38,216 nt of DNA from Parachlamydiales bacterium (lineage in GTDB: Bacteria; Chlamydiota; Chlamydiia; Chlamydiales; Parachlamydiaceae). The stretch lies in the NCBI GenBank assembly GCA_020051235.1, contig JAGVJG010000152.1, forward strand, positions 1 to 38,216, written 5' to 3'. The first letter of the stretch is position 1; every line of letters begins with the position of its first letter. The translations under genes and the position numbers were made by a program. Shown one piece after another: positions 3,116 to 22,649 of this stretch. The notes beneath the pieces were generated by a model. The model was not told the DNA's origin and searched no databases. It saw only the letters and a list, made by a program, of their open reading frames with translations.

Positions 3116-3124
3116 GAGTGTGAG

Positions 3125-5276: not shown

Positions 5277-5296
5277 GTTCAAGAAATGATTAAGAA

Positions 5297-5321: not shown

Positions 5322-5347
5322 AAATAGTTCTGTAACAAGGAACTAAT

Positions 5348-5539: not shown

Positions 5540-5544
5540 TTAAT

Positions 5545-5570
5545 AAGGAAGAAGATAACCCTTCTTCCTT
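5545..5570 (+). terminator. Strong hairpin after the lipoprotein gene
   Basis: A perfect 10-bp stem, AAGGAAGAAG (5545-5554) with CTTCTTCCTT (5561-5570) and loop ATAACC, begins six bases after the lipoprotein stop codon. The flanks continue pyrimidine-rich and T-rich (CTTCTTATTA). It separates this gene from the operon that begins at 5644. Confidence 0.65.
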
Positions 5571-5643
5571 CTTCTTATTAAAGTTCAATTAATTTAATCC
5601 CTTACCATAATTAAATAAATTTTTTTAGTGTAGAATGGTGTTT

Positions 5644-6747: not shown

Positions 6748-6779
6748 TTAATTTTAATATCAATTAATTGGATGAACTT

Positions 6780-7772: not shown

Positions 7773-7788
7773 AAGCTATAATAAAGCT

Positions 7789-7803
7789 GGAGGCAGCGAA
7801 TTG
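7789..7803 (+). promoter_or_regulatory. Ribosome binding site that supports a TTG start
   Basis: GGAGG at 7789-7793 lies seven bases before the TTG at 7801-7803. No ATG with comparable spacing exists nearby in frame; the next in-frame Met is at about residue 17, inside the conserved fold. The site therefore decides for the TTG start of the aminotransferase gene. Confidence 0.7.
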
Positions 7804-8718
7804 GAATTTAAACTCCTTCCTTATTGCTTCTTTCATAATCGATTAATGCCTTACAACGAGGCAAAATTACCCCTAGCCATGCACAGTTTGCAATATGGCA
7901 CTACGTGTTTTACAGGCATAAGGGGATATTATCGCGATAAGGGACTTTTAATATTTCGATTAAAGGATCATTGGCAGAGACTCGTCAACAACGTCAAAAT
8001 TGCGGGCATTCCCTTCACCCTTGATTGGGATTTTTTTCAAGACACCATTACGGGCCTTATCAAGCTAAACAATCCCACCCATGACATTTACATTAGACCT
8101 TTCCTCTTTGCAGAAAATGAAGCCTTATCTCCTCGATTTGATGGGCTTGATTATCAACTAGCTGTCTATGTAATGGAAATGGGCGATTATTATGATACGA
8201 CTCGTGGGATGAAATTAATTACTTCCACCTGGAAGAAAAATTCAAATGCATCTATTCCTTCTAAAGCGAAGTTGGGGGGTGCTTATGTAAATGCGGCTTT
8301 GGCCACAACGGAGGCTCACCGCTTGGGTTGTGATGATGCGTTGATGATGAATGAATTAAATGAAGTAGTGGAAGCCTCGGTTGCAAATATTGCTATTGTA
8401 TATAAGGGCGAAGTGTTGATGCCAGATATAGGGGAAGAACAATTAGAGGGGATTACAAGAGACACGATTCTTTCATTTCTTCAAGAGGAAAAAATTCCTT
8501 TTCATTTTGGACCTATCGATCGTTCATTAGTCTATACCTGTGATGAGCTCTTACTACTTGGAACCGCTTCCCAGGTTATATTTACATATTCCGTTGATGG
8601 AAGACTAATTAATGCAGAGAATAAGCCAGGCAAAATTTGCCAAATTCTAAGAGATAAATTCAAAAAGTTGATCGATGAGGGAAAAAGCCCTTGGTTAACC
8701 CGTGTAGATTTGTTATAA
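7801..8718 (+). CDS. ilvE: Class IV aminotransferase, branched-chain (IlvE) type
   Basis: PLP-dependent transaminase of fold type IV, most likely moving the amino group between glutamate and branched-chain 2-oxo acids. The 305-residue protein shows YGTTCFTGIRGYYR (compare the YEGxRxY region of IlvE), then SKAKLGGAYVNAALATTEA around the PLP lysine. EVVEASVANIAIV (the E...NxF/I phosphate-contact region), LEGITRDTILSF and LLGTASQVIFTYSVDG complete the family pattern. 4-Amino-4-deoxychorismate lyase and D-amino-acid transaminase share this fold, so the substrate is inferred. The start is TTG with a good GGAGG. It ends 28 bases after the preceding SDR gene region begins a new ribosome site, and its stop codon overlaps the -10 box of the RNA gene that follows. 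Confidence 0.7.
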   Translation: MEFKLLPYCFFHNRLMPYNEAKLPLAMHSLQYGTTCFTGIRGYYRDKGLLIFRLKDHWQRLVNNVKIAGIPFTLDWDFFQDTITGLIKLNNPTHDIYIRPFLFAENEALSPRFDGLDYQLAVYVMEMGDYYDTTRGMKLITSTWKKNSNASIPSKAKLGGAYVNAALATTEAHRLGCDDALMMNELNEVVEASVANIAIVYKGEVLMPDIGEEQLEGITRDTILSFLQEEKIPFHFGPIDRSLVYTCDELLLLGTASQVIFTYSVDGRLINAENKPGKICQILRDKFKKLIDEGKSPWLTRVDLL

Positions 8719-8719
8719 T
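8691..8719 (+). promoter_or_regulatory. Sigma-70-type promoter for the 6S-like RNA
   Basis: TTGGTT (8691-8696), a 17-base spacer and a perfect TATAAT (8714-8719) lie across the 3' end of the aminotransferase gene, the -10 box overlapping its stop codon. A start near 8726 would place the first base just before the closing stem of the RNA. Confidence 0.6.
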
Positions 8720-8725
8720 TCATCT

Positions 8726-8880
8726 TTCTGTTCCAGTGGAATCCTAAGTTAATAGTCCTATCAACGTAAATTTTATTTTTAAGGGATTGCGAGGCTTTAT
8801 CTCTGTGGAGATTGAGATTAGCGAACCCACCTGAACAAACCTAGTTGTTTGGCGAACTTACACCCTGGAACGGTTTTTTT
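8726..8880 (+). ncRNA. ssrS: Structured RNA resembling 6S RNA
   Basis: About 155 bases with a single long interrupted hairpin. GTTCCAG (8730-8736) pairs with CTGGAAC (8865-8871). Inside a large bubble the fold continues with GGGATTGC pairing GCGAACCC (7 of 8), then CTTTATCTC pairing GAGATTGAG (8 of 9) around a TGTG loop. The 3' side of the bubble holds ACCTGAAC, a small AACAA/TTGTT hairpin and GAACTTACACC, reminiscent of the E. coli 6S RNA segment in the same place. Seven T residues (8874-8880) follow the closing stem. 6S RNA mimics an open promoter and sequesters housekeeping RNA polymerase. The 3' end overlaps the last 23 bases of the convergent gene. The identity as 6S rests on architecture, not on a model search. 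Confidence 0.5.
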
Positions 8881-9739
8881 CCTTTTCTACAGCTATCCTT
8901 TCCGATAAAGCATTAATCGTTTGATTTTCATAGAACAGATCTAAAGGTAATTTCGTTTGAGTGGCTTTTTCTAACTCATCAAGTAGATCAATTGCAATCA
9001 TCGAATCAATTCCATATTTTTGCATATCTTGTTCATCGGAAATCTGAGAAAAATCGATGTGTAGACGATCTTGAAGAATGTGATGGAGCATTTTTCTTAT
9101 TTCTTCTTTTTCCTTATTATTTTTGGTTACATGAGCAAGAGAATCTTCTCGAGGAGAGTAAAGTATTTCTGTAGAAGCATCATTTATAATATATTTTTCA
9201 TCGTCTAAATGACTTAAAAATGATTTAAACTTATTTCCTAATAGACCCATAGCTTGAGCAAAAGTTTTTTCATTTGTATCAGTTATAACCCAGGGCCATA
9301 AAAAAACTTCTGATAGGGGATAAAAACCTAAATAAAATTTTCTTAAATCAATAGGTGTGACAGGAACATAGGCATAGAAGCACTCAATATTGTTTCTTAA
9401 ACCTAACAGAGCAACTCCTTGTTGTAGTAAGAGTCCAGCCCCTGGAGTTAAGGACCAAAGCTCGCTGCCTTCAATCACTTTTTCTGGAGGTAGGTGAGAA
9501 AAATCAGGTTTATTATAAGAAGCCGGAAGCGTGGCTAGATCGTGTAGTACTACTCCTGCAATCATTTGGTTCGTGTCATCATATAAGGCCCACAAATCCC
9601 CGTAGGTTAAGTGAATTTCCCCCAATTTTGATTGAGGAATTTCTCTAAACCCCCCTCCTTTTCTAATTGAGCGCGAAAGGTGGAGATTCGAAATAAATAA
9701 GTCTCTTTCCTGAGGTTGAACGATCTTTTTAAGTTTCAT
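8858..9739 (-). CDS. Acyltransferase-like domain fused to an acyl carrier protein
   Basis: A 293-residue two-part protein. The C-terminal part (about 215-285) is an acyl carrier domain: KYGIDSMIAIDLLDELE holds the phosphopantetheine serine (Ser246) in the classic DS context, followed by PLDLFYENQTINALSERI. The N-terminal 200 residues are not firmly assigned; ELWSLTPGAGLLLQQGVALL and LRKFYLGFYPLSE recall the acetyl-CoA/acyl-binding and FYxxxGF segments of GNAT folds, the fold of FeeM-type N-acyl amino acid synthases. It overlaps the fatty acyl-AMP ligase gene by four bases (ATGA), so the ligase very likely loads this carrier, and the N-terminal domain may transfer the acyl group. It is the last gene of the long minus-strand operon. 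The carrier call is firm, the acyltransferase call is inference. Confidence 0.7.
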   Translation of the reverse strand: MKLKKIVQPQERDLFISNLHLSRSIRKGGGFREIPQSKLGEIHLTYGDLWALYDDTNQMIAGVVLHDLATLPASYNKPDFSHLPPEKVIEGSELWSLTPGAGLLLQQGVALLGLRNNIECFYAYVPVTPIDLRKFYLGFYPLSEVFLWPWVITDTNEKTFAQAMGLLGNKFKSFLSHLDDEKYIINDASTEILYSPREDSLAHVTKNNKEKEEIRKMLHHILQDRLHIDFSQISDEQDMQKYGIDSMIAIDLLDELEKATQTKLPLDLFYENQTINALSERIAVEKEKNRSRV

Positions 9740-11472
9740 ATCGTTTCAAGCTCCTTCTGTAAATAAAGAGCCTTAGTTGCAAGATGCCTAATTTTACCAC
9801 TGGTAGTTTTAAGAAGAGTTTTAGGCTTAATCAAAACGATGTCATGAGGAACAATTTGAAAGTGCTGAAGTATTGTTTGATTGATTAATTGCTTTAATTG
9901 ATTTTGATCAACGTTAACATCTTTTACTTCAGCAACAATTACAAAATCCTCTGAAAGGGATCCTTCAAGTTCAAATGCGGCTACACAGCCCTTTCTTATA
10001 TCCGGATGTGCCATTTCAACAATGACCTCAAAATCGTGAGCATAATAATTTTTACCGTTTATGATGATTAAATCTTTTATACGGCCGGTAATATAAAGTT
10101 CGTTTTTATATAAGAATCCCAAATCTCCTGTTCGAAGGTAAGTAATATCGTTAAATCGTATTAATGCTTTTTCTGTTTCTGAAGGCTCATTCCAATAACC
10201 CTTTGTCACACAATCATTAGAGATACAGATCTCTCCAATTTGCCCTTCTTCACATAACTGAAGAGTTTCGGGAACTAAAAATATGATCTTGCTGTCGGGG
10301 TGAAGCTCCCCATTGCTTACGATTTCTTTATAGGGAGCTTCATCTATTGCTTCTTTAAAGTACCCTTTTCTATAAGCATCAATATCTAGATGAAAAATGT
10401 GAGGGTGCTCATTGTTTTTTCGGCCAGAAACTAATAATGTGGCCTCAGCGAGCCCATAGACGGGAAAAAATTTAACTAAATCAAGTTTAAATCTTTCAGA
10501 GAATTTTTTTAGAGTATCTAATCTAATTACTTCTGCTCCGTTTAAGATCCATTTTAAAGAATGCAAATCTACGCTCTCAAGCTGTTCATCAGACACTTTT
10601 TTTAAAAGTAATTCAAACGAGAAATTGGGCGCAGAGAAACCTTCCGCTTTATAATTTGAGATTATTTGAAGGAATTTAAAAGGAGTTCTTAAAAAATCTA
10701 TGGGCGACATCATAATAGATGTCCCTTTGTAATAAATCGGATATAGAATGCAGCCAATTAAGCCCATATCATGATAAGGAGGAAGCCAGGTTGCACAAGT
10801 GATCTTAAAATCGTTCATATTTATGGCGTAGTTTATATGCTCGAATTGGGTGACTAAATTCTTCATCGAGATTTGAACGCCTTTACCGTGCGAAGTAGAT
10901 CCTGAGGTATATTGAAAAAAGACGGGCTCTTCCCAAGTTTCTTTTATCTCGAGAGGTTTAGAACTATCAGGTATTTTTTCGATGGGAACCCATCTATGAT
11001 CCAAATTACCGATTTCAATATCATGATGCACTTTATTTAACAGATGGTGAAGAGGTTTTGTGAATGAATATTTTTTTAAAATGTTAAGAAAACCTAAACG
11101 ATAAAATTTCTTAATTAGATCGTCCGTAGTTAATACTAAAGAGCAATTAGAATTTTCTAAAATTTTATTAAATCTATGGGCGGTTTCTTTGTTAAGAGGC
11201 GGCATAGTAGGCACCGCTATCATTCCTGAGAATAAACAAGCGTAAAAGGCGACAACGAATTCGATGCCCGGTGCAAAACATAGGACTATTCGATCCCCAA
11301 TTTTGCAATGTTCATTTAAATAATTAGAAATAGGAGCTATTTTTTGTATTAGCTCTTCATAGGTAAGTTGCTGCTTTAAATTGTCTGCCAAAAAGCCTAA
11401 TGCAAAGGCTTCGGGCTTACTTTGAGCCTGCGATAGTAATTCATATACTAAGCTTGATTTAATAAGTGGCAT
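9736..11472 (-). CDS. Fatty acyl-AMP ligase-like adenylate-forming enzyme
   Basis: ANL-superfamily enzyme, 578 residues, predicted to adenylate a fatty acid and pass it to an acyl carrier protein. Motifs in order: FFQYTSGSTSHGKG (P-loop, about 185-198), ATWLPPYHDMGLIG (227-240), ILNGAEVI, FFPVYGLAEATLL, YLRTGDLGFL, ITGRIKDLIIINGKNYYAHD, and the C-terminal KTTSGKIRH with the adenylation lysine at about 560. The PPYHDMGL and GKNYYAHDFE wording is characteristic of fatty acyl-AMP ligases rather than acyl-CoA ligases. All catalytic segments are intact. The next gene overlaps by four bases and carries an acyl carrier domain. A 61-base AT-rich gap separates it from the upstream ThiF gene, the largest gap in the operon. 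Confidence 0.85.
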   Translation of the reverse strand: MPLIKSSLVYELLSQAQSKPEAFALGFLADNLKQQLTYEELIQKIAPISNYLNEHCKIGDRIVLCFAPGIEFVVAFYACLFSGMIAVPTMPPLNKETAHRFNKILENSNCSLVLTTDDLIKKFYRLGFLNILKKYSFTKPLHHLLNKVHHDIEIGNLDHRWVPIEKIPDSSKPLEIKETWEEPVFFQYTSGSTSHGKGVQISMKNLVTQFEHINYAINMNDFKITCATWLPPYHDMGLIGCILYPIYYKGTSIMMSPIDFLRTPFKFLQIISNYKAEGFSAPNFSFELLLKKVSDEQLESVDLHSLKWILNGAEVIRLDTLKKFSERFKLDLVKFFPVYGLAEATLLVSGRKNNEHPHIFHLDIDAYRKGYFKEAIDEAPYKEIVSNGELHPDSKIIFLVPETLQLCEEGQIGEICISNDCVTKGYWNEPSETEKALIRFNDITYLRTGDLGFLYKNELYITGRIKDLIIINGKNYYAHDFEVIVEMAHPDIRKGCVAAFELEGSLSEDFVIVAEVKDVNVDQNQLKQLINQTILQHFQIVPHDIVLIKPKTLLKTTSGKIRHLATKALYLQKELETI

Positions 11473-11533
11473 ATTTATATTTAATTATAAAATATGTTCT
11501 AAATCAATAGGTAGTTATTTTAATTAATTAAAT

Positions 11534-12394
11534 TTAATTCTCAATTATTAAGTTTTTAATAATTTTGAAAGTTATAAAAGACAGAGGGTTCGAATTTCCC
11601 CAGGGCCTATAGCATTTTTTTTGTTTGTATGACCAAGCGTCATATTGAATAGACGTTGGAGCGAAAACCACAGGTCCGCGCTTACAGAGGATTTTAACTA
11701 CCTCTGTGCAAGCGACCCCTGCGCACAAAGTTACACCCACCGGAGTGCTTGGGACTTTTTTTAATTTAAAATTAACAAATGATTTATCAATTAAAGCTCC
11801 ACGATGCAAAAAGGAAGGGGCAAGTCCAACTAGAAATCTAATGCTTTGATCTTCTTCCGAATATCCATCTAATTTAAAATACTCTTCAAAACTCATTTTG
11901 TTCGGGTGAAAGTTTAAGAGGGAAGCGCTAAATCCAAGAGGAGCTACCGTAGTCGCATAAATCTTATTTTTATGACAGAGAGCAAAAATTTTTCTTCTTT
12001 CTTGCAGTGCCCAAAAATCCAATCCATCTAAATACAGATCAACGTCTTTAAGAAATTCATTTCTGTTTCCGTCATGAACACCTTCTGCAAAAGAAGTGAT
12101 TTCCATTTCCGGATTTATTTTTAAGGCCATTTCTTTGATGACGTTCGTTTTTTCTTTACCAAGAGTATCGAGATTGGCGCCAAATTGACGATTGAAATTT
12201 GCAAGTTCAAAGGTGTCATTATCAGCAATATGCAGTTTTCCTACCCCCATACGTGCAAGGATAAGCGCATATATGCCTCCTACCCCACCCGCTCCTGCAA
12301 TAGCCACCCTTTTATTACGAAGAATGTTTAATTCATTTGGAGTAAGCCACCCTAATGTACGACTAAAGGCCTCTTCATAATTGAAATTATCCAT
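11534..12394 (-). CDS. ThiF/MoeB/E1-like adenylyltransferase
   Basis: A 286-residue E1-like enzyme that would adenylate a carboxylate, classically the C-terminus of a ubiquitin-like or sulfur-carrier protein or, in biosynthetic clusters, a small acid. Seen: NKRVAIAGAGGVGGIYALIL (nucleotide-binding glycine loop, residues 34-40), ADNDTFELANFNRQF (the DxxxxNxxRQ segment), GKEKTNV, and a DGLDF segment. No CxxC zinc pair is evident. The ATG at 12394 lies within the end of the nitroreductase gene (8-base overlap) behind a GAGG sequence; an upstream TTG at 12412 is less likely. Mycobacterial Rv1355c-type proteins join a ThiF domain and a nitroreductase domain in one chain, so these two adjacent genes probably act together. 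Substrate is unknown. Confidence 0.75.
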   Translation of the reverse strand: MDNFNYEEAFSRTLGWLTPNELNILRNKRVAIAGAGGVGGIYALILARMGVGKLHIADNDTFELANFNRQFGANLDTLGKEKTNVIKEMALKINPEMEITSFAEGVHDGNRNEFLKDVDLYLDGLDFWALQERRKIFALCHKNKIYATTVAPLGFSASLLNFHPNKMSFEEYFKLDGYSEEDQSIRFLVGLAPSFLHRGALIDKSFVNFKLKKVPSTPVGVTLCAGVACTEVVKILCKRGPVVFAPTSIQYDAWSYKQKKCYRPWGNSNPLSFITFKIIKNLIIEN

Positions 12395-13403
12395 GATATT
12401 TAAGTTCCTCAAGCGTTAAGCGATCAGATCGGGCAGAAGGAGGTTTAGCAAATCCTACTCGTGATAGCATAGCCATCGTTACATGCTGAGGAAACAATTC
12501 ACGAAATTTTTTGTATAAATGATTTAAAAGTTTTTCTTTGGATTTATCGTAAGGATTAACTCCATCATGGGCATATCTTGAAAAAATAATAGGACCTGAC
12601 TCCATTTGGAGGGATACATTATTTTTTGTACATTCAAGCCAAAATCTCTGAAAATTTTCTCCTGCTTTAATAAAGTCTTCACGAGTTGTTAATTCACGGG
12701 GAGGCATTAAGGCGACATGAGCTCCGGTTCGAAGGGAAGGTAAAAAAAATCCAAAAAATGCGGAGATATACTTTCCTCCAAGACGATGAAAAACCCATTT
12801 TGTTAGAAAAGGAGATTTAAAAATTTGTCTCGCCATCCATAGGTTTAACGAATCAAGGCCCAAAGTTTCGTCAGCTAAACGATACTTGCTAGTTTTAGCA
12901 TTCCAATCAATAATGCCCTTTGTAGCTGGCTGTGCAAGCAAATCAAAAACAAACATTAACTTAGCTATTTTGGGTAAATAGTTTTCATCAAACCAAGCAA
13001 GAGTCCATCCATTATCTAAGTTTTTTCCCAGCTCTGATTTCAAATTTTCGGAGATTTTTTTGCGACTATAAGGAAATCGATTGGTAACTCTAGAATAGAT
13101 GTAGGGTTCAAGTTCATTTATGACGGGATTGTCATTAGGAATTAGGGTGAGGGTAAAATCGTTATTATTTTGTTCAATTTTTAAACTTCCATAGCGACTT
13201 GCGGCGATTCGGCAAGATTCAAGAAGGCACCCGACTGCAAACTGGCTGTAATTTCCTTTATAATCTTGAACGGTTTCTTTTGAGCAATCAAAAGTATGAA
13301 CGATAACGGTAGTAGGATTTAAAAATTCAAAGCGCCATGGTTGCGTGTTATCTCCACTTGGTGCCCATCTAGCGAGGTCCATAATCTTTTCAATGGGAGT
13401 CAT
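12387..13403 (-). CDS. Nitroreductase-like flavoprotein (Acg/Rv1355c-like)
   Basis: A 338-residue protein of the FMN-dependent nitroreductase superfamily. The N-terminal MDLARWAPSGDNTQPWRFEF (residues 8-27) is the usual FMN-binding R-(W/Y)-APS-xxN-xQPW signature. A second half follows with RTGAHVALMPP and RVGFAKPPSARSDRLTLEEL, where the family normally has its RxGxP...R flavin contacts. Length suits the double-module Acg-like subgroup. Oxidation or reduction of a bound intermediate is the expected chemistry. An excellent ribosome site AGGAG lies five bases before the ATG. The start overlaps the ABC ATPase gene by 14 bases and the end overlaps the ThiF gene by eight. Confidence 0.7.
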   Translation of the reverse strand: MTPIEKIMDLARWAPSGDNTQPWRFEFLNPTTVIVHTFDCSKETVQDYKGNYSQFAVGCLLESCRIAASRYGSLKIEQNNNDFTLTLIPNDNPVINELEPYIYSRVTNRFPYSRKKISENLKSELGKNLDNGWTLAWFDENYLPKIAKLMFVFDLLAQPATKGIIDWNAKTSKYRLADETLGLDSLNLWMARQIFKSPFLTKWVFHRLGGKYISAFFGFFLPSLRTGAHVALMPPRELTTREDFIKAGENFQRFWLECTKNNVSLQMESGPIIFSRYAHDGVNPYDKSKEKLLNHLYKKFRELFPQHVTMAMLSRVGFAKPPSARSDRLTLEELKYHG

Positions 13404-14082
13404 TTTTCTCCTTTAGATGACCTTCATCCAAATACAAGGCTCGAGAAGCAAAGTTTATAGCCCGATGATCATGTGTAATCATTAAAACAGATCGATTTTT
13501 TTCTTTTGAAAGATCTTGTAAGGTATGAAAAACCAACTTCGCATTTTCTAAATCAAGTACAGATGTCGGTTCATCGCAAAGTAAAATGGGAGGTTCATTC
13601 ATTAAAGCGCGAATAATGGCAATTCTTTGTTTTTCTCCGCCTGACAATTCGTAAGGGAAGCTTTTAGAGTGACTTTTGAGTTTGAATCTTTCAAGGTAAT
13701 AGTAAGCACGATCTTTTTCTTCTTGAGAAACTTTTTTTCCTTGAATTCCACACGGTAGAAGCAAATTTTCAATGATATTAAGAGCAGGCACAAGAGTTGA
13801 GTTTTGAAAAACAAAGCCGATATCGTGAAGCCGTTTTGTTGTTTGTTCGTCTTCTGTTAATCCTTTTACTTCTTGACCTTTTATGTAAACAGAGCCTTCT
13901 GATGGAGTAAGGATGAGTCCTAGAATCGATAAAAGTGTCGTTTTACCACTTCCTGAAGGGCCCATTATCATTACAGATTCGTTAGGCGCTATTGACAAAT
14001 TGATATTAAAAAGAACTCTTCTATTCTGTTGGCCATCGAAATAATCTTTACTGATATTTTCGGCGCGGATGATTTCATTCAT
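13390..14082 (-). CDS. ABC transporter ATP-binding protein, LolD/MacB/DevA type
   Basis: Cytoplasmic ATPase subunit, 230 residues, with Walker A GPSGSGKT, Q-loop FVFQNS, signature LSGGEKQR, Walker B ILLCDEP and H-loop MITHDH. This subfamily drives mechanotransmission exporters together with an FtsX-fold permease, here the gene at 16187-17320, rather than classical flippases. The ATG at 14082 lies inside the TolC gene end (ATGAATGA); a TTG nine bases upstream is the alternative. It sits between the TolC gene and the nitroreductase gene with overlaps on both sides. The exporter genes are ordered permease, membrane fusion protein, TolC, ATPase. Confidence 0.9.
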   Translation of the reverse strand: MNEIIRAENISKDYFDGQQNRRVLFNINLSIAPNESVMIMGPSGSGKTTLLSILGLILTPSEGSVYIKGQEVKGLTEDEQTTKRLHDIGFVFQNSTLVPALNIIENLLLPCGIQGKKVSQEEKDRAYYYLERFKLKSHSKSFPYELSGGEKQRIAIIRALMNEPPILLCDEPTSVLDLENAKLVFHTLQDLSKEKNRSVLMITHDHRAINFASRALYLDEGHLKEKNDSH

Positions 14083-15349
14083 TAATATCAATCCCAGAGA
14101 TTCTTCTTAAAGCGTAATAGCTTCTTAGTAAGTTGTAGGCTGATCTTTCATAAATATGTCTTGACCTTGCGTGTTCTAATGCGGAATCTCGATATTCCAA
14201 AGGCGTTACTTTACCGACTTTTAGCCTTTCTAAGGCTTGTGTGAGCGCAAGTTTACTTAAGTCTAAAGATTCTTCAGAGGATTGTAATATGGCAAGTGAT
14301 TCTCTAACTTCTTCAAGTTGATTTAAAGTATCACGCTGAAGATTACTCGCAATTCTCTCGTAATCAAATCGACTTGATCGTTCACGATAACGGGCTTGCC
14401 TAATCCGACTTTCTCTTCCAAAACTGTCAAATATATTCCACGTTAATTGAAAGCCCCCAAGCCAAGTGTATCTTTGTTTCGTAAATTTCGGGGCGCCGAT
14501 AAATTGTTGTTGATAGGAGGCCATCGAGCTTACGACTGGATAATATTCTGCCGTGTGTGAGTAAACAGTTTGCTTTCTAGAATTAACTTCAAAGGCCTGC
14601 CTTAACAAGTCTGGATTGTATGAAAGGGCAAGTTCTTGCCAATAGCAGTCACTTGCAAAAAAGGGATTTAGAAAACGACCTAGATCAATTTGCTTGTCGA
14701 TTGGTTCAATGTCTTCATTAGGATCGATGCCGATAAGGTTCTTTAAATTGTTCAGGGACTGTTTATAATCCTTTTGGGCGGTGTATAAAGAGGCTTTGCT
14801 ATTAGCTATCGACACTTTGCTTTGATTTACTTGATAAATGGCCGATTTTCCAGCTGCTGCTCTTCTCTCTTCTTGTTGAAGGCCTTCCGTTAATATCGAT
14901 ATATTTTCATTTTGAATGGCTATATCATCTAGATTCAAAACGGCAAGCCAATAAGTTGATCGCACTTGAAATAGAAGGTTATTTTTTAAATTTTCAACTT
15001 CATATTCCATCGCTTGATGGCTAAGTTTTCCCGCTCTAATTTGATGATAAAGCTCTTTAGAAAAGAGCATTTGATTAAATTGAAAGCCTGTTTGCCAAAA
15101 ATTATCTTGTGGGAGAATGCCTGGTAAAAGTGCAATTTTTTCTTCAGACTTTTGATAGGTGCCTACAAACTGAGCCTGAGGGAAATATTGTGACATAATT
15201 TCTTCCGCTCTTTCATACGAAACGTTTGCGAGCTCGATTAATGCGTTAAGTTCTTTATTATATTTTAGGGCAATGCATTCCGCTTCTTCTAAAGATATTT
15301 CTCGCGCGGTGAGCGTAAAGACAAAGAGCAGACTAATTAGGTTCCACAT
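14075..15349 (-). CDS. TolC-family outer membrane efflux protein
   Basis: A 424-residue outer-membrane channel protein predicted to form the trimeric exit duct for the adjacent ABC exporter. A signal peptide (MWNLISLLFVFTLTARE) precedes ISLEEAECIALKYNKEL, the usual first helix of TolC proteins. Two long helical repeats follow, the second ending in YRDSALEHARSRHIYERSAY and the typical LLRSYYALRRISG. The TolC repeat motif with DxFGRxSRIRQARY (compare N-DxGxRxxxxxQA) is present near residue 305. I chose the ATG at 15349 because it puts the signal peptide at the N-terminus; an ATG at 15409 adds 20 residues inside the upstream gene. It overlaps the HlyD gene by 17 bases. Confidence 0.85.
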   Translation of the reverse strand: MWNLISLLFVFTLTAREISLEEAECIALKYNKELNALIELANVSYERAEEIMSQYFPQAQFVGTYQKSEEKIALLPGILPQDNFWQTGFQFNQMLFSKELYHQIRAGKLSHQAMEYEVENLKNNLLFQVRSTYWLAVLNLDDIAIQNENISILTEGLQQEERRAAAGKSAIYQVNQSKVSIANSKASLYTAQKDYKQSLNNLKNLIGIDPNEDIEPIDKQIDLGRFLNPFFASDCYWQELALSYNPDLLRQAFEVNSRKQTVYSHTAEYYPVVSSMASYQQQFIGAPKFTKQRYTWLGGFQLTWNIFDSFGRESRIRQARYRERSSRFDYERIASNLQRDTLNQLEEVRESLAILQSSEESLDLSKLALTQALERLKVGKVTPLEYRDSALEHARSRHIYERSAYNLLRSYYALRRISGIDINE

Positions 15350-16190
15350 ACACCACCAGCTCGATCGGTAGATTTTCTTCGTTTGGTGTAAAGCTGATAA
15401 AGGCTTCAAGATATTTTATATCCACCATCACAGTAGGATCTTCAATTAGGAAATTGGGAGGTCCCATATAAAGACCTTTACGAATGAAGTCTCCTTCCCC
15501 AAGTTTCTTATTTGTATCGGCGTTAAAAATTGAATAACTGCCTGGTTTAATTCTATTGATCCAATAAGAATCGACTCTTAAGTTCACCCAAAGATCCTTT
15601 TTGCCTACAATGAACAAACGATCGCCCGGTTGAAAGGTTTGCCCTAGAAGTACATCCATTCGATATACACGACCGTCGAAAGGTGCCGTTAATAATAGTT
15701 GATCATATTCTACTTGAGATTGCGCTAAATTTTTTTTAGATACATTTAACTCTGCTTGCGAAAGTTCAAATTCCAGTTGTGATTGTTTAAATTCAAACTC
15801 ATCGATTACTTGTGTACTAATTAGTTTTGAATTTCTTTCGAAGCGATCTTTATTTATGGCAAGAGCCGCTTCTTTTGATTGAACCTCAGCTGTTAGAGAA
15901 TCTAAACGAGCTTTTTCTGTTTTTCGATCTAACTCAACAAGGGGCTCGCCTTCTTTAATAAAATCTCCTGCTACCACAAAAATTTTATCGACTCTTTTGG
16001 CAAGGGGAGGATTTACGTATACGGGCCTGTCGTAGGGTTCAATTAATCCATAGATTCTATAGGCAACGGTATTTACATCAGGGGGTTCAATAGGATTCGT
16101 GGTTGGAACAACGTTCAAAAGTGATTTAGTAATGTAAACCAAAGCTAAAGCTAGTACAACAATTCCAATAAGATAGAGAGGCTTTTTCAT
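15333..16190 (-). CDS. HlyD/DevB-type membrane fusion protein
   Basis: Periplasmic adaptor, 285 residues, joining an inner-membrane ABC exporter to a TolC channel. One N-terminal membrane segment (about 4-24) is followed by a biotinyl-lipoyl-like half motif (GLIEPYDRPVYVNPPLAKRV, then VAGDFIKEGEPLVELD). A short coiled-coil hairpin spans about 88-160 (KARLDSLTAEVQSKEAALAI onwards), and the second lipoyl half is LLLTAPFDGRVYRMDVLLGQ. The short length and the permease/ATPase neighbours fit the DevB/MacA-like branch. It overlaps the permease by four bases (ATGA). Confidence 0.85.
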   Translation of the reverse strand: MKKPLYLIGIVVLALALVYITKSLLNVVPTTNPIEPPDVNTVAYRIYGLIEPYDRPVYVNPPLAKRVDKIFVVAGDFIKEGEPLVELDRKTEKARLDSLTAEVQSKEAALAINKDRFERNSKLISTQVIDEFEFKQSQLEFELSQAELNVSKKNLAQSQVEYDQLLLTAPFDGRVYRMDVLLGQTFQPGDRLFIVGKKDLWVNLRVDSYWINRIKPGSYSIFNADTNKKLGEGDFIRKGLYMGPPNFLIEDPTVMVDIKYLEAFISFTPNEENLPIELVVYVEPN

Positions 16191-17320
16191 CTAAATACCG
16201 TAGCTGGATCGATTTTTAAAGCATGACGAACAGCAAAGATAGACCCCAATAAGCAAAGCAGGAGTGTTGATAAAAAGTGAACAGGACCAAACCAAATGGG
16301 AAGCGCTACGGGAACTCTTGTTTCTACAATTATGTTTAATGCAAAAGCCAGGAGTAAAAATCCAATAAATGAACCAATTAAAGCCATGATAAGTACTTGA
16401 TAAAAGATAATTATAAAAATATCTATCTTTCTCGCACCTAATGCTCTTAATATTGCGATATCTCGGTCGTAAGTAAGTATATTGTTATAAAGAGTTAAGG
16501 CAATGATGACGATTCCGATTAAAGCGGCTAGCGTCGTACTTAGATATAGACTTCCTCCCACTCCTGTACTAAATAGATAATAACTAGTACTCGATTCTGC
16601 AAGTTTCTCAGTATCAAAGACGGTCGCAAAAGGAAATAAGGCAATTATTTTGTTTTTTGCTACTTGCCGGTCTACGCCTTTTTTAAGTTTTACTAAAACA
16701 GCGTTACTAAAAAACTGGCTGTTACCTTGAATGCTATGGGCGTTATATTCGCTTCCAAAGACGACATCCCCTCTAAAAGTTCTAATGTGTTTTGTTATAC
16801 TTGTTAAGCGAAGCTTTTTATTCTGAATATCAATGTACTGATTAAGTTGAGGATTATATTTGTAATCTAGAGTTGAGTCATCGATTGTTGTTGCAAAAGG
16901 ATCAAGTAAATCAGAAGGCTTCCCATTGTAAAATACCCAAGGACCTCCTGTTAAGTACGGCATTTTTAGGCCAAACATAACAGACAATTCTCTTCGTCCC
17001 GATTTATCTTTCATTAAACCTGCTGCATTTACGAGAGGCCTCGCAAATAGAACTTCCTCAACTCCATTTGCTCGATCCACGTAATTCATAGGGAGATCGC
17101 CTGAATGATCAAGATTAACGGTATTCTTGGTGACCACCCAAAAATCTACGCCACTATGCCTAATGACGTTTTCAGTTATATCGATAACACCAAAAAGGGT
17201 AGCAATCTGAACTCCTACCAAAAATACGATGGCAATCACCCCAATGACGGAGCCGGTAGAAGCAGATATATTATGCATGAAGAGGCGAAGAGCGGCTCGT
17301 AATCTACTATCGTTGAACAT
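16187..17320 (-). CDS. ABC exporter permease, FtsX/MacB/DevC fold
   Basis: A 377-residue inner-membrane permease: one N-terminal membrane helix (ASTGSVIGVIAIVFLVGVQI, about 20-40), a roughly 200-residue periplasmic domain, then three membrane helices at the C-terminus, the topology of DevC and MacB-membrane domains. ILTYDRDIAILRALGARKID before the second helix pair is the conserved FtsX-type coupling segment. Together with the DevA-like ATPase and DevB-like adaptor it should form a tripartite pump; in cyanobacteria the DevBCA-TolC pump exports heterocyst glycolipids. The ATG at 17320 overlaps the aminotransferase stop by 14 bases; a longer reading from 17401 would run deep into that gene and is less likely. 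Confidence 0.85.
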   Translation of the reverse strand: MFNDSRLRAALRLFMHNISASTGSVIGVIAIVFLVGVQIATLFGVIDITENVIRHSGVDFWVVTKNTVNLDHSGDLPMNYVDRANGVEEVLFARPLVNAAGLMKDKSGRRELSVMFGLKMPYLTGGPWVFYNGKPSDLLDPFATTIDDSTLDYKYNPQLNQYIDIQNKKLRLTSITKHIRTFRGDVVFGSEYNAHSIQGNSQFFSNAVLVKLKKGVDRQVAKNKIIALFPFATVFDTEKLAESSTSYYLFSTGVGGSLYLSTTLAALIGIVIIALTLYNNILTYDRDIAILRALGARKIDIFIIIFYQVLIMALIGSFIGFLLLAFALNIIVETRVPVALPIWFGPVHFLSTLLLCLLGSIFAVRHALKIDPATVFR

Positions 17321-18374
17321 ATTCTTTGATAAGTGTAAGGCCTTTTTCAATTGACTCTTCACTTTCAACAAATGCAAACCGAACAAAACCCGGTTTTCCA
17401 AAGGCGACTCCAGGCACTAATGCGACCTGAACTTTATCAAGAAGATCTCTGCAGAATTCTAAATCGTCTTTTTGTTTTGCGCCGAGGGATTCAAGAGAAC
17501 AAAAATAATAGATAGCAGCTTCTGGAGGGGTTATCGATCCAAAAAGTTTTTCAAAGGTTTTGATGAAAATGGCTCTTCTCTTTGCTAAAATGTTTTTTAC
17601 ATAAGGCAAAATTTCATTACGATGCTTTAGCGCAGCAAGAGCGCCCCATTGGCTAATAATGGAAGTGGATGTGATTGTTTGTGATAAAAGGGGCCCACAC
17701 TCTTTTATTAACGCGGCGTCTGCAAATAAGAAACCGATGCGATATCCCGCCATAGCAAAATTCTTGGATAAACTTTGAACAATTAAATTCTTTTCTGAAA
17801 TAGGACACGATACATAAGGACGATCGGTGAAAATCAGATTGTTATAGACTTCGTCAGATATTATGTAGGCGTTATGTTTTTGAGACCAATTTGTTAGTAG
17901 ATCAATCGTTTGTCTGTCGTAGAGCTTTCCCGTAGGATTAACAGGGTTATTAAAAATAATAGCTCGAGCAGGAGGTAGATTTATTTCAAGATTGTCTACA
18001 AATATAACTTTTCCTCCAGCAAGTTCCACCAAAGAAGGGTAGGAGGGCCAATAAGGTTTAACGACAATCACCGTGTCGCCGGGTTTTAAAATCGCATTCA
18101 AAGCCGCAAATAAGGCAAATTTGCCACCAGGCGTTACTAATACATTTTCTGCCTCTGTTCCGACCCAATCCGCCGCTTCCTTCCTTAATTCTGTAATTCC
18201 GTAGGTCGGAGGATAAGGAGAATGAGGAGAAATTGACTTAAAGCTCTCAATTACAAGTGGATGATTCGCAATTGTCGGATCGCCTGCTGAAAAATCATAC
18301 ACCACTTTCCCTTCACGTCTAAGTGCATGCGCTTGGTTGCTAATGGCAATGGTGGGGGAAAGCTCGGTTTTCAT
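17307..18374 (-). CDS. Class I aminotransferase, aromatic/aspartate type
   Basis: PLP enzyme of fold type I, 355 residues. Conserved features: FSAGDPTI near the N-terminus, VTPGGKFALF (PLP phosphate region), FNNPVNPTG (145-149), SDEVYNNLIF (Asp174, Tyr177), QSLSKNFAMAGYRIG with the PLP lysine at 204, and FVRFAF with the substrate-carboxylate arginine. In this position, directly after a chorismate mutase-prephenate dehydrogenase gene with a four-base ATGA overlap, the likely reaction is 4-hydroxyphenylpyruvate to tyrosine, although aspartate is also a plausible substrate for this family. It overlaps the exporter permease gene at its 3' end, tying amino-acid supply to export in one transcript. 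Confidence 0.85.
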   Translation of the reverse strand: MKTELSPTIAISNQAHALRREGKVVYDFSAGDPTIANHPLVIESFKSISPHSPYPPTYGITELRKEAADWVGTEAENVLVTPGGKFALFAALNAILKPGDTVIVVKPYWPSYPSLVELAGGKVIFVDNLEINLPPARAIIFNNPVNPTGKLYDRQTIDLLTNWSQKHNAYIISDEVYNNLIFTDRPYVSCPISEKNLIVQSLSKNFAMAGYRIGFLFADAALIKECGPLLSQTITSTSIISQWGALAALKHRNEILPYVKNILAKRRAIFIKTFEKLFGSITPPEAAIYYFCSLESLGAKQKDDLEFCRDLLDKVQVALVPGVAFGKPGFVRFAFVESEESIEKGLTLIKEYVQR

Positions 18375-19297
18375 ATTACTTCTTTGTGAAGGATTTCAAT
18401 CCATTTCTCAAGTAATTTTACGATGGTATCGTGATTTAGTTTTTCAATTGCCCTGTGAAGTTCGGGATTATCTTTGGCAAGGCGCGTAAACGATTGAAAC
18501 CCAGGGCCTGCGAGTTTTAAATCGATTCCGCTTTCCGACTTTGCAAATTCGTAAAATAGACGAGATAAAATACCTGGAAGATGAGAAATCAATGCCGCTT
18601 CTCGGTCATGCTCTTCTTTATCGATAATAACGGGATTGGCTCCCAAAAACTCAATAAAGTGGCCAATTCGATCTAGAGTTTCCTGCTTATTCTTTGAGTG
18701 AGGAGTTATGGCCCATGGTGCATTTACAAAAAGGGTAGGAGAGCTATTTTCGTAGCCGGCGGTCTCTTTTCCTGCAAAAGGATGAGTGGCTACAAATTCA
18801 AGATTGTCGTGGGTGAGTTTTTCAAACGCTTCAGTGATATTTTGTTTTACAGATCCCACGTCCATAATGATTAAGGGAGATTTGGAATCGATGGTTTTTG
18901 CGATAGAAACAATGGTTTCTAGTGGAGTGGATACGATTAATAATTCAGGCTGATTGTTAGTGAGAGGAAACGGTAATGCTTTTGCTATTGATCCTCCGAT
19001 TAACCCAAGACCTATGATTTGTATACGTTTAAAGGGACAGTCGGGGTGCTGTTTTAAACGCTGCACTTTTTTAGATTCTGCAAAAATAGCGCGATAAACT
19101 TCCCTAAGCTCTTCTTGTATGATGGGATCTTTAGATTTAATTTTTTCAAGAATGTGTTTTTCGCGTGTTGGATCAAGGAGAGGAAGGTTTTTTTCTTTTT
19201 TTATGGCTGCAATTTTTTCTGATATTTTAAATCTTTTGGAAAGAAGCTCGATTATTTGTTTATCGATTGAGTCGATTTCATCTCTTAGCGGCTCCAT
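18371..19297 (-). CDS. tyrA: Chorismate mutase-prephenate dehydrogenase (shortened)
   Basis: Bifunctional T-protein, 308 residues against about 370 in E. coli. Residues 1-85 form an AroQ chorismate mutase with the active-site set Arg5, Arg22, Lys33, Asp42, Arg45 and Glu46, at exactly the spacing of the E. coli PheA mutase. The dehydrogenase follows: IIGLGLIGGSIAKAL (Rossmann loop), THPFAGKETAGYENS, and ISHLPGILSRLFYE with the conserved histidine. Between the glycine loop and LLIVSTP only about 11 residues occur where the family has 27-45, so the beta-2/beta-3 part of the NAD-binding fold is missing. The reading frame is otherwise uninterrupted. It overlaps the DAHP synthase gene by 20 bases and the aminotransferase by four. 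It converts chorismate via prephenate to 4-hydroxyphenylpyruvate if still active. Confidence 0.8.
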   Translation of the reverse strand: MEPLRDEIDSIDKQIIELLSKRFKISEKIAAIKKEKNLPLLDPTREKHILEKIKSKDPIIQEELREVYRAIFAESKKVQRLKQHPDCPFKRIQIIGLGLIGGSIAKALPFPLTNNQPELLIVSTPLETIVSIAKTIDSKSPLIIMDVGSVKQNITEAFEKLTHDNLEFVATHPFAGKETAGYENSSPTLFVNAPWAITPHSKNKQETLDRIGHFIEFLGANPVIIDKEEHDREAALISHLPGILSRLFYEFAKSESGIDLKLAGPGFQSFTRLAKDNPELHRAIEKLNHDTIVKLLEKWIEILHKEVI

Positions 19298-20087
19298 TTA
19301 AAGTAAGGCTCCCAAATAACCTATTAATTATCCCTTTGAACTGGGTAATGTCAAGCTGTTGCTTTTGATCGGTCTTAGCAAAGTTGACATGGGGGTGAAC
19401 TTCTATCATATAGCCATCGAAAGGATAATTTTCTGCTTCAATAATAGTGCGAAGTACATTGTCTGGCGATCCTCCCATGTGAGAAGGATCTATAATCATT
19501 GGGCAACCTAACTTTTCTTTTACTCGAAGAGCCATTTGAAAATTAGGTAGATTCCTAAATTTGAATGGGTTGGGATCGTGTCCTGGATTAAAACCTCTAT
19601 GGCATATTAAAATTCTTTCATGAGGAAATCCTGCTTTGATTATATGATCATATATTCCGAGCCAATGGGTTTCATCTTCCCAAATTTGATTTTTGAACAT
19701 TAAATAGAATTGATCGGAGGTCTCCGAAAGAATCCTTGCAATTTTGCTTTGTTCAAAGTGGTTTTGATTTCTAGCACCCATCCATACGAGGACCGGATGG
19801 TTAAAATCTTTAAAGTATTGAGCGAGTGCAATGGCATGTTCGGCGCACATTATTTCAGTGGCTGGAGAAAATCCTCGTTCTTCGGCTTCTTCAAGCAGCA
19901 ACGGTATGCCAAGAGTTCCGAGTCCATCCCATCCCGTTTGAGTGCGAGGTTTCCAAAGAGACGCACGAATAATATTAATGTTTAGAGGTAAAAGTTCAGA
20001 AGCAGCATCAATCAGTTGTTCTCTGGATTCGAGCGCACAAGGGCCGCCAATGATATATTTATTACTATAATTTCGAGGAAGATCCAT
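19278..20087 (-). CDS. aroF: 3-Deoxy-7-phosphoheptulonate (DAHP) synthase, KdsA-like type I-beta
   Basis: First enzyme of the shikimate pathway, joining phosphoenolpyruvate and erythrose 4-phosphate. The 269-residue protein has IIGGPCALES, RASLWKPRTQTGWDGLG (the KPRT motif that separates DAHP synthase from KDO8P synthase), TEIMCAEHAIAL, VWMGARNQNHF, MFKNQIWEDE, ICHRGF, and MIIDPSHMGGSPDNV with the metal-binding histidine. The wording matches the Bacteroidetes-like subfamily often found with chorismate mutase. No regulatory extension is present. GGAGG six bases before the ATG at 20087 decides this start over a GTG at 20102. It is the first gene of the packed minus-strand operon, 49 AT-rich bases after lplA, which could hold its promoter. 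Confidence 0.85.
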   Translation of the reverse strand: MDLPRNYSNKYIIGGPCALESREQLIDAASELLPLNINIIRASLWKPRTQTGWDGLGTLGIPLLLEEAEERGFSPATEIMCAEHAIALAQYFKDFNHPVLVWMGARNQNHFEQSKIARILSETSDQFYLMFKNQIWEDETHWLGIYDHIIKAGFPHERILICHRGFNPGHDPNPFKFRNLPNFQMALRVKEKLGCPMIIDPSHMGGSPDNVLRTIIEAENYPFDGYMIEVHPHVNFAKTDQKQQLDITQFKGIINRLFGSLTLNGAAKR

Positions 20088-20136
20088 AGGTTCCCTCCGC
20101 ACCAGATATATTAATTTATATTACTAATAATTTTAA

Positions 20137-20814
20137 TTAGTTTTCAATAAAAGAACTAATTCGACAATTTGATGTTAAATTAGTATTAATTTTGGAGTAA
20201 TTAATAATGTAGTTTGTTTCTAAGCGTTTTCTTAGCAACGAGAAGAAAAAAGAGGGGGTCTCAAAATGCCCTTTTAAAGAAATGATAAAATCTTCATGAG
20301 AACGATTTTTTCTATGTTGAGGTGTTCGGGGAGGGAATTTCAAACCTTTCATCGAGTCTAAATTATAGTCCCAAAGTAACGAAGTGTGATGAACAAATCG
20401 GTGTTTGGTGATGTATTGCGCATTTCCCCCCACTTTACGATCATTTATGCAGTAATCATTTTCCCTTCTTTGAAAGGCGGGAATGGTCGCTTGATAAAAA
20501 GGCTCTGCAAAGCGATGTAAAGAAGAAGGAGTTGCGGCTTCATTTAGAAGATCGTTAGGGCCGATAAAGGAAACAAAAAGGGTGTTTTCATCAATAACTA
20601 CCGCACCTCCTCCCGTATATCTTCTAATAACAGGTGAAGCCTCTTTTTGAAGCCATTCTTCTTTTTTAGCAGAGAGAGGAAGTACATAGGCAGAAGGGGA
20701 TTTGTAATTGAAAATACAAAAAAAATCTTCCTGCGTTCTTAACAGCCTTTCTTCAAGGTGAAGTTGTTCAAGTATGGGAACGTTTAACTCAATTAAGTTT
20801 AAGGTTCGCTGCAT
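20137..20814 (-). CDS. lplA: Lipoate-protein ligase A-like protein
   Basis: Attaches lipoate, or a related acyl group, to lysines of 2-oxoacid dehydrogenase E2 and GcvH proteins. The 225-residue protein shows the biotin/lipoate transferase fold motifs: RRYTGGGAVVIDENTLFVSF (the RRxSGGGAVxHD signature), NDRKVGGNAQYI with the catalytic lysine, and HHTSLLWDYNL. The short length without the C-terminal accessory domain is typical of chlamydial ligases, which salvage host lipoate. The ATG at 20814 overlaps mnmG by 16 bases; a TTG nine bases upstream is the alternative. It is probably co-transcribed with mnmG. Confidence 0.8.
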   Translation of the reverse strand: MQRTLNLIELNVPILEQLHLEERLLRTQEDFFCIFNYKSPSAYVLPLSAKKEEWLQKEASPVIRRYTGGGAVVIDENTLFVSFIGPNDLLNEAATPSSLHRFAEPFYQATIPAFQRRENDYCINDRKVGGNAQYITKHRFVHHTSLLWDYNLDSMKGLKFPPRTPQHRKNRSHEDFIISLKGHFETPSFFFSLLRKRLETNYIINYSKINTNLTSNCRISSFIEN

Positions 20815-22649
20815 GACGAGCAAGAATTTGCACGTTGAAGGGCGATCATTAAAACGGTGATGTCAGCGGGAGACACGCCAGGAATGCGTGAAGCTTGTCC
20901 GACAGTCGTTGGATTTGTTTTGCTAAACTTACACCGCGCCTCATTTCTTAAACCGACTAAACTGTTAAAATCAAAATCGCTCGGAATTTTGATTTTTTCT
21001 ATATGAGAAAAGCGAAGCACTTCAGCTTCTTCTCTATCCATATAGCCTTCATATTTAGCCATAAGCTCGATTTGTCGATTAGTATCAAATCCGTAATCGT
21101 TTAAAAGATCGGGGTATTCAGTCAGTAATTCGTTATAAGTTTTTTCGGGACGGCTTAAAAGTTGCCAGATGGAATGGCCTTTGCCGTTAATTTGTTTAAA
21201 ATGCTTTTTTAATCTTTCACTTTCAGTGTCGATCGCTTCTTGCTTTTGTTTTACAACGTTATGGCGAGAAGCATCCACCATGCCTAGAGTGTATGCATGA
21301 GCCGTAAGGCGTAGGTCGGCGTTACATTGACGAAGACGTAATCTTCTTTCCGCGCGGCTTGTGAACATGCGGTAAGGCTCGTCAACCCCTTTGGTGATTA
21401 AATCATCGGTCATTACACCGATATAGGCTTCTGCCCGATTTAAAACGAAGGGTGCTTTTTGTTGAACGTGAAGAGCGGCATTTAGCCCTGCCATAATTCC
21501 TTGTGCGGCGGCTTCTTCATAGCCCGTTGTGCCGTTTATTTGTCCCGCAAAGAAAAGGCCCTCAATGGTTTTAGAATGATAAGCAGGGGTGATTTGGCCT
21601 GAAATTAAGTAATCGTATTCAATGGCATATGCAGGGCGCATGATTTCGGCATTCTCTAGGCCAATAATGCTTTCAATGACCTTCTTTTGAACATCAAAGG
21701 GCATTGAGGAGGAAACACCGTTAACATAGATCTCAGCTGTTTTAAGGCCTTCGGGCTCTAAAAAGATTTGGTGGCGTTCTTTGTCGCTGAATCGAACGAT
21801 TTTATCTTCGATTGAAGGGCAGTAGCGGGGGCCGACGGATTGTATTCTTCCTGAATACATCGCCGATCGGTGGAGATTCTCTTGAATGATGAGTTTAGTC
21901 GCTTCTGTCGTATAAGTGATGTGACAAGGAACTTGGGGAAGTCTAGGACCGTTATCATCCACAAAAGAAAAACGCACGTCGTTTTCGCCGGGTTGCACTT
22001 CCGTTTTACTGAAATCAATAGAGCGAGCGTTAACACGTGGAGGAGTGCCTGTCTTAAGGCGGCCTAATTTAAGCCCAAATCTTTCAAGAGAGGCGGATAA
22101 GCCGACTGAAGGCTGATCTCCGGCTCTTCCGCCGGAATATTGAACTTCACCAATGTGTAAAAGGCCTCTCATGAAGGTGCCGGAAGAAAGAATCAGCGTC
22201 TTTGTGTTATAGCGAATACCTTCTTTGGTGATGACGCCCACAATACGATCATTTTCAACAATGATGTCTTCAATCGTACCCTGTTTAATTTCAAGATGGG
22301 GAATTTGTTCTAGCTGACGTTTCATTTCAAGCGCGTATTCGGCCTTATCGGCTTGCGCTCGAGGTGCGAATACAGCGGGACCGCGTGTGCGGTTTAACAT
22401 TCTAAATTGAATGGCGGTGCGATCAGTTACGATGCCCATAATACCGCCTAAGGCATCTATTTCACGAACCATATGCCCTTTACCAATCCCCCCGATGGCC
22501 GGATTGCAGCTCATCTTCCCGATCGTGTCGAGGTTCATGGTAAGAAGAAGTGTTTCCTGTCCCATGCGGGCAGCTGCGTGAGCTGCTTCGCAGCCGACAT
22601 GGCCGGCGCCCATTACAATAACATCATAGGACTTCGGATAACTCCACAT
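20799..22649 (-). CDS. mnmG: tRNA uridine-5-carboxymethylaminomethyl modification enzyme
   Basis: FAD-dependent enzyme that works with MnmE to install the cmnm5 group on wobble U34 of certain tRNAs. The 616-residue protein matches the usual full length (about 620-630). It shows YDVIVMGAGHVGCEAAHAAA (FAD-binding), KMSCNPAIGGIGKGHMVREI, LGRLKTGTPPRVNARSID, AGQINGTTGYEEAAAQGIMA, and the C-terminal GVSPADITVLMIAL used for MnmE/tRNA contact. All motifs look intact. The neighbour downstream is lplA with a 16-base overlap; upstream, ten bases away, is the small mS38-like gene. Confidence 0.95.
   Translation of the reverse strand: MWSYPKSYDVIVMGAGHVGCEAAHAAARMGQETLLLTMNLDTIGKMSCNPAIGGIGKGHMVREIDALGGIMGIVTDRTAIQFRMLNRTRGPAVFAPRAQADKAEYALEMKRQLEQIPHLEIKQGTIEDIIVENDRIVGVITKEGIRYNTKTLILSSGTFMRGLLHIGEVQYSGGRAGDQPSVGLSASLERFGLKLGRLKTGTPPRVNARSIDFSKTEVQPGENDVRFSFVDDNGPRLPQVPCHITYTTEATKLIIQENLHRSAMYSGRIQSVGPRYCPSIEDKIVRFSDKERHQIFLEPEGLKTAEIYVNGVSSSMPFDVQKKVIESIIGLENAEIMRPAYAIEYDYLISGQITPAYHSKTIEGLFFAGQINGTTGYEEAAAQGIMAGLNAALHVQQKAPFVLNRAEAYIGVMTDDLITKGVDEPYRMFTSRAERRLRLRQCNADLRLTAHAYTLGMVDASRHNVVKQKQEAIDTESERLKKHFKQINGKGHSIWQLLSRPEKTYNELLTEYPDLLNDYGFDTNRQIELMAKYEGYMDREEAEVLRFSHIEKIKIPSDFDFNSLVGLRNEARCKFSKTNPTTVGQASRIPGVSPADITVLMIALQRANSCSSCSEP

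Follow-up and report, generated by a model that had tools for sequence, protein, structure and literature searches.

In Mycobacterium tuberculosis, the TyzACB proteins (Rv2336-Rv2338c) convert tyrosine into an oxazolone: TyzA N-acylates the amino acid, TyzC, an O2-dependent member of the nitroreductase superfamily, desaturates the N-acyl-tyrosine, and TyzB, an ATP-dependent ThiF homologue, performs the cyclisation (PMC10404671). The TrzAS proteins of the same species (Rv1355c-Rv1356c) carry out equivalent chemistry with tryptophan, Rv1355c being a ThiF-oxidase fusion (PMC12856293), and sets of an N-acyl amino acid synthase, a ThiF protein and a nitroreductase have been linked to N-acyl dehydrotyrosines (PMC12479983). 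Biosynthetic gene clusters are known in chlamydiae generally (PMC9666466), from a report in whose main text neither tyrosine nor N-acyl products come up, and we found no cluster of the present type for chlamydiae in the open-access literature. Here we analysed contig JAGVJG010000152.1 (assembly GCA_020051235.1) of a Parachlamydiales bacterium; its whole length of 38,216 nucleotides is called the window below. It carries a row of eleven minus-strand genes which, judging from the families they belong to, probably serve the biosynthesis and export of an N-acyl-(dehydro)tyrosine or a tyrosine oxazolone ('tyrazolone'-type), and which were probably acquired as part of an island in the Parachlamydiaceae lineage.

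Gene order and the ThiF-nitroreductase pair

The window is the entire contig C60 of a 2.32-Mb bin (184 contigs, 88% complete, 2.5% contamination). Its list of open reading frames (ORFs) holds eleven intact minus-strand frames in succession, from 20102 down to 8858. With the longest possible starts, neighbouring frames overlap by 4 to 95 nt at nine of the ten junctions, and the sole gap measures 61 nt (11473-11533); the 77- and 95-nt overlaps become smaller when later start codons are taken for the TolC and FtsX genes. Such a row resembles an operon and is no product of chance. A preceding sequence-only reading had described eleven genes in a row with a single 61-base gap, ten of them overlapping or nearly so. 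The row and the gap were confirmed by the ORF list and by Pfam/NCBIfam, which also agreed with the earlier gene types for all eleven genes; the overlaps are now put at nine junctions and the extent, formerly ending at 20087, at 8858-20102, the DAHP synthase starting at GTG 20102 or a later codon. Scans for promoters (42 sites vs. 48 in shuffles, no excess) and terminators (19 vs. 14.5, a slight excess) were not used.

The ThiF-like gene (11534-12412) and the nitroreductase-superfamily gene (12387-13403), which overlap, are the most informative part of the array. The ThiF product exceeds the curated cut-off of the NF006077/PRK08223 model (365 vs. 266 bits), and both products are matched by PRK14851, the model of a ThiF-nitroreductase fusion, and partly by Rv1355c. 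For the nitroreductase the scores were 76 bits with Rv1355c, 79 with Acg and 80 with PRK14851; the Rv1355c and Acg values lie under cut-offs set for full-length proteins, and the conserved core motif is present. Residues that are nearly invariant in the two families are retained at 79 of 91 positions in ThiF and at 53 of 80 in the nitroreductase. A scan of bacterial genome contigs returned 357 ThiF relatives, and the window protein is 48-54% identical to relatives in other genomes. Among the best 80 of the 357, a nitroreductase is mostly fused to ThiF or adjoins it, and FeeM/GNAT-type N-acyl amino acid synthases stand beside several of them. All three activities are joined in one 989-aa chain, FeeM + ThiF + nitroreductase, in protein DVUL_RS15680 of the Nitratidesulfovibrio plasmid pDVUL01 (L030, 11062-14028). 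Given the PRK08223 match, the linkage to nitroreductases, the FeeM neighbours and the retained residues, the pair is best read as cyclising and desaturating an N-acyl amino acid; we therefore regard it as a putative TyzB/OxzB-like ATP-dependent cyclase and a putative TyzC/TrzS-like flavin-dependent desaturase. The DVUL_RS15680 gene lies in an XrtA/PEP-CTERM island of its plasmid. A metagenome-assembled genome titled Legionella was rejected as a source, because a contig assigned to it (L050) agrees in sequence and gene content with one from Methylococcaceae (L054) and is probably mis-binned in the public record.

Only two of 234 Chlamydiota genomes carry this ThiF family, which bears out the earlier view that such a pathway would be unusual in a chlamydia. 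The second is Parachlamydia sp. bin.582 (G020), where a 6.2-kb contig (L056) contains a nitroreductase-ThiF pair on one strand, a convergent gene for an acyltransferase-acyl carrier protein (ACP) fusion, and genes for DAHP synthase, chorismate mutase/TyrA and an aminotransferase, in an arrangement that differs from the window. The nitroreductase tree placed the window sequence as sister to that of bin.582 (SH-aLRT 100); the same grouping was weaker in the ThiF tree (support 91, long branches).

Compared with the described systems, the window is most like TyzACB, with which it shares separate, adjoining cyclase and desaturase genes, an acyltransferase candidate and tyrosine as the expected substrate. 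TyzA, however, has a FeeM fold and uses acyl-CoA, whereas the window combines a fatty acyl-AMP ligase (FAAL) with an orphan domain that carries an ACP, and it has tyrosine genes of its own and an FtsX/HlyD/TolC exporter in the same cluster. TrzAS and OxzAB (Pseudoalteromonas rubra) resemble it in the reactions of ThiF and flavin oxidase with N-acylated aromatic amino acids, but there ThiF and oxidase are a single protein, and the substrate of TrzAS is tryptophan. The stieleriacine, thalassotalic acid and kyonggic acid clusters (NasY + ThiF + nitroreductase), the nearest characterised cases with N-acyl dehydrotyrosine products, have the same pair beside a FeeM-type synthase; the window has no recognisable synthase of that type and adds precursor supply and FAAL loading. 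With the N-acyl amino acid synthase FeeM (PF21926) the window probably shares an acyl-ACP donor and tyrosine as acceptor, but its candidate domain has no sequence match to FeeM and its carrier protein is fused in cis.

Proposed acyl loading, tyrosine supply and export

Acyl activation is represented by the FAAL gene (9736-11472; AMP-binding 178 bits), whose product contains the motifs YTSGST, YGLAE, YLRTGD, GRIKD and SGK. Its best matches are FAAL models, several of them at 250-340 bits, though under their narrow cut-offs. The last gene of the array (8858-9739) encodes a candidate N-acyl amino acid synthase made of an orphan N-terminal domain (residues ~1-200, possibly GNAT-like) and a C-terminal ACP (~205-290; PP-binding 48 bits vs. 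a cut-off of 20.8) with the expected phosphopantetheine serine, Ser246 (codon 9002-9004), in a DSM motif at 245-247. Glutamates in a stretch IEGSELW may be counterparts of Glu95 of FeeM. A second FAAL gene, 37% identical to that of the operon, was observed in the same genome on contig C4 (L174, 775-2604), and no FAAL relative was detected in the bin.582 genome at the threshold used.

At the other end of the array lie the genes for a type I, short-form DAHP synthase (19278-20102; DAHP_synth_1 82.6 bits, DAHP synthase models being best in NCBIfam), a chorismate mutase-prephenate dehydrogenase fusion yielding 4-hydroxyphenylpyruvate (18371-19297; CM_2 76, PDH_N 76 and PDH_C 53 bits) and a class I aminotransferase that would turn 4-hydroxyphenylpyruvate into tyrosine (17307-18374; Aminotran_1_2 171.5 bits). 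These domains represent the tyrosine-specific branch. In other Chlamydiota the trio is part of aro operons, where it is followed by aroB, aroA, aroK and aroC. The same short DAHP synthase type occurs in canonical aro operons of other chlamydiae (G079, L138; G103, L141), chorismate mutase-TyrA homologues are either fused or split, and the aminotransferase homologue comes after TyrA in many of these operons. Within the family TyrA is rare, only a few members having one. Because the trio and the ThiF-oxidase pair are co-located in both the window and bin.582, while ThiF occurs in so few Chlamydiota and TyrA in so few family members, we consider chance co-location unlikely; the pattern speaks for tyrosine supply and the pair being functionally linked. 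The TyrA, aminotransferase and DAHP synthase trees were poorly resolved and the two trios were not sisters throughout, so joint transfer of a whole cluster is not claimed. The differing arrangement and trees make convergence on the same gene set more telling, yet they leave room for coincidental neighbours.

Between the tyrosine genes and the nitroreductase lies a complete tripartite exporter set: an FtsX-fold ABC permease (16187-17401; FtsX 63 bits), a HlyD-type periplasmic adaptor (15333-16190; HlyD_D23/HlyD_3, RND_mfp 84 bits), a TolC-type outer membrane efflux protein (14075-15409; OEP 153.5 bits, two repeats) and an ABC ATPase of LolD/DevA/MacB type (13390-14091; ABC_tran 119 bits; LolD 207 and DevA 194 bits, both below cut-off). 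The same four components make up the cyanobacterial glycolipid exporter DevBCA-TolC and its MacAB/LolCDE relatives, and the set had been called DevBCA in the sequence-only reading. That assignment was rejected: ATPase, adaptor and permease all score under the curated cut-offs (DevA 194/296, DevB 46/129, DevC 42/290 bits), so that the name describes a likeness and not membership. The permease has homologues in islands with FeeM-ThiF-nitroreductase or ThiF-nitroreductase genes. It is 29% identical over 383 aa to a permease of the pDVUL01 island and is also homologous to a permease adjoining ThiF in Methylomonas lenta. Homologous FtsX-ATPase-HlyD sets stand beside ThiF-nitroreductase in M. lenta, where the HlyD match is weak, and 8.5 kb from the FeeM-ThiF-nitroreductase gene in pDVUL01. 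These cases are few, but they support export of the product.

Taken together, the families suggest the following route. DAHP synthase, chorismate mutase-prephenate dehydrogenase and aminotransferase would raise tyrosine from the shikimate pathway, and FAAL would activate a fatty acid as acyl-AMP and load it onto the ACP domain of the fusion protein. The fused N-terminal domain may then take the acyl chain off the ACP to which it is joined and attach it to the tyrosine amino group, in the manner of the free-standing FeeM, TyzA and OxzA; this is the weakest step. By homology to TyzC and TrzS, the nitroreductase-type flavin oxidase would desaturate the 2,3-bond with O2, and by homology to TyzB and TrzS the ThiF-like enzyme would close the oxazolone with ATP. 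Since oxazolones are readily hydrolysed, the released form may be an N-acyl-dehydrotyrosine; oxazolones are also destroyed by acids and alcohols (PMC12856293). Linkage suggests that the FtsX/ATPase/HlyD/TolC set moves the product across both membranes. The earlier proposal of an acylated, oxidised and exported tyrosine is in this way largely supported and sharpened to an oxazolone or N-acyl-dehydrotyrosine, with the acylation deduced from context and the product and its export predicted. The linkage it drew between tyrosine synthesis, acyl activation, the ThiF-nitroreductase pair and export is supported, as the pair fits TyzACB and TrzAS (PMC10404671, PMC12856293) and recurs with the trio in a second chlamydia.

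The pathway as such is already known, for instance in the tuberculosis bacterium; its description in chlamydiae is apparently new. Four features appear new beside the characterised clusters: an ACP that is fused to a candidate acyltransferase and would be loaded by FAAL, tyrosine genes devoted to the pathway, an exporter within the cluster, and occurrence in Chlamydiota. If correct, our reading places an oxazolone or N-acyl-dehydrotyrosine pathway in an intracellular bacterium, with precursor supply, acyl loading and export in one operon, and a candidate new family of acyltransferases, with the carrier protein in cis, would join the known ones. The physiological role of the pathway is an open question even for M. 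tuberculosis (PMC12856293), and the purpose and secretion of the lipid would become directly testable. That the product acts on the host or on competitors among bacteria is conjecture. Somewhat more specifically, and tentatively, one core of tyrosine supply plus ThiF and flavin oxidase may have been joined in two chlamydiae to unlike fused acyltransferases, namely an orphan domain with ACP in the window and PlsC with ACP in bin.582; the tyrosine lipid or oxazolone that they export would then act on a protist host or on co-infecting bacteria.

Competing explanations

Several observations weigh against a tyrosine-acylating operon. The full eleven-gene order was found in no other genome, as would be expected of scattered homologues, although the ThiF-nitroreductase-tyrosine core does keep company elsewhere. 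The desaturation step requires O2, and the exporter could serve another substrate. Searches of the genome, which is 88% complete, brought up neither AroC (chorismate synthase) nor AroB (3-dehydroquinate synthase); aroC is present in 28 of 29 family relatives, and as aroC and aroB are operon neighbours in relatives, one assembly gap could account for both absences. The ACP-fused acyltransferase of bin.582 (L056, 1638-2936, minus strand, between nitroreductase-ThiF and the tyrosine trio) is of PlsC type, unlike the window domain; its ACP part was recognised by the motif LDSLELIALL and not by a Pfam match. The remaining objection concerns the N-terminal domain of the window fusion, for which no similarity to FeeM or to anything else was detected. 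The 233 other Chlamydiota gave no relative (one chance match contained stops), and neither did PDB sequences, Pfam or PHROGs. Searches of plasmids, viral contigs, 24 ThiF-bearing genomes, 143 genomes of the order of the Legionella-titled bin and 398 sampled Pseudomonadota were likewise empty, the genome searches outside Chlamydiota being answers without a positive control. The domain did not match PF21926 (threshold 27 bits) at E up to 10, and when it was aligned by profile with three families of synthases from neighbouring genes, the probability stayed below 1%. AlphaFold models built without an alignment reached a predicted local distance difference test (pLDDT) score of 38 both times, which is unreliable.

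Such a domain might not be an N-acyltransferase at all: it could acylate some other acceptor (e.g. a hydroxyl group, a sugar or envelope lipid), with ThiF and nitroreductase using the product of another acyltransferase of the genome. No acyltransferase matched the domain in sequence or significantly in fold, and the sugar-related character of neighbouring plus-strand genes (WbuX-like amidotransferase, HpnA-like epimerase) would likewise suit this reading. We nevertheless hold it to be unlikely, because a synthase typically stands beside ThiF-nitroreductase in oxazolone and N-acyl-dehydrotyrosine clusters (PMC12856293) and the domain is the only candidate in the operon; its predicted order of elements (hairpin, helix, strand, strand) is GNAT-like in the low-confidence model, and the top Foldseek match of that model is a GNAT, though a non-significant one (E 0.39). 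A synthase role for the domain is thus suggested by operon position: all characterised pathways of the type have such an enzyme. The substrate could also be something other than tyrosine, if two modules merely shared a transcript, the trio relieving an auxotrophy and FAAL, ACP fusion, nitroreductase, ThiF and exporter acting on, e.g., tryptophan, phenylalanine or a non-aromatic amino acid. The trio is an ordinary chlamydial aromatic module, found elsewhere in aro operons with aroB, aroA, aroK and aroC, TrzAS acts on tryptophan (PMC12856293), and the locus is a variable site with other cargo in relatives; yet trio and nitroreductase-ThiF recur together, differently arranged, in bin.582, few family members possess the trio, and its overlap with an exporter gene in the window is a junction of the kind typical of translational coupling. 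A pair of unrelated modules is an improbable account, to about the same degree as the preceding one. The fragmentation of the source bin raises, finally, the question whether the contig is chlamydial. Its flanks (sdhCAB-PMT on one side; lplA-gidA, rpoN, rsbU and wecG on the other) match the neighbourhood seen in G004 and other members of the family, and chlamydial relatives exist for the tyrosine trio. With flanks conserved in this way the operon sits in a genuine chlamydial genome, and mis-binning of the contig, a most improbable event, was rejected.

The island and its surroundings

That a tyrosine-lipid cluster was acquired by a member of the Parachlamydiaceae lineage is, in our judgement, rather likely. 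The array lies in a genomic island of ~14.9 kb (~5277-20136) between a PMT glycosyltransferase gene and lplA-gidA, with a G+C content of 0.36-0.37 inside vs. 0.412 on both flanks. The flanking genes are sdhCAB-PMT at 343-5276 and lplA-gidA at 20137-22649. In relative G004 (L182), sdhCAB-PMT is followed by lplA-gidA after a 1.5-kb gap holding one unrelated ATPase gene; in relative G001 (L186) the distance from PMT to lplA is 0.46 kb, and other family relatives carry different cargo at this site. As the flanks adjoin in same-family relatives, the window holds ~14.9 kb of extra DNA.

The island also contains three plus-strand genes convergent with the operon, encoding a WbuX-like N-acetyl sugar amidotransferase (5635-6747), an HpnA-like NAD epimerase (6768-7772) and a class IV aminotransferase of IlvE type (7801-8718). 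These three may have a tailoring role or may be cargo unrelated to the operon. Just within the left border, a small plus-strand ORF (5348-5539) encodes a short protein whose start resembles that of a lipoprotein (MKYTLLSLFLLTSCAAG) and is followed by a terminator-like hairpin at 5545-5570.

Beyond the right flank, a minus-strand gene (22799-23662) encodes a 287-aa protein with no Pfam match above cut-off, in which a HETGH motif (HExxH-like) lies amid hydrophobic stretches; it is possibly a membrane metalloprotease. Further on, the minus-strand block at 23736-29236 holds exopolysaccharide-type genes, namely for a WecG-like glycosyltransferase with a C-terminal STAS-like part, a nucleotidyltransferase and a WcaJ-like sugar transferase. 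This block adjoins a response-regulator/RsbU-like phosphatase with anti-sigma-like domains and is partly conserved in relatives.

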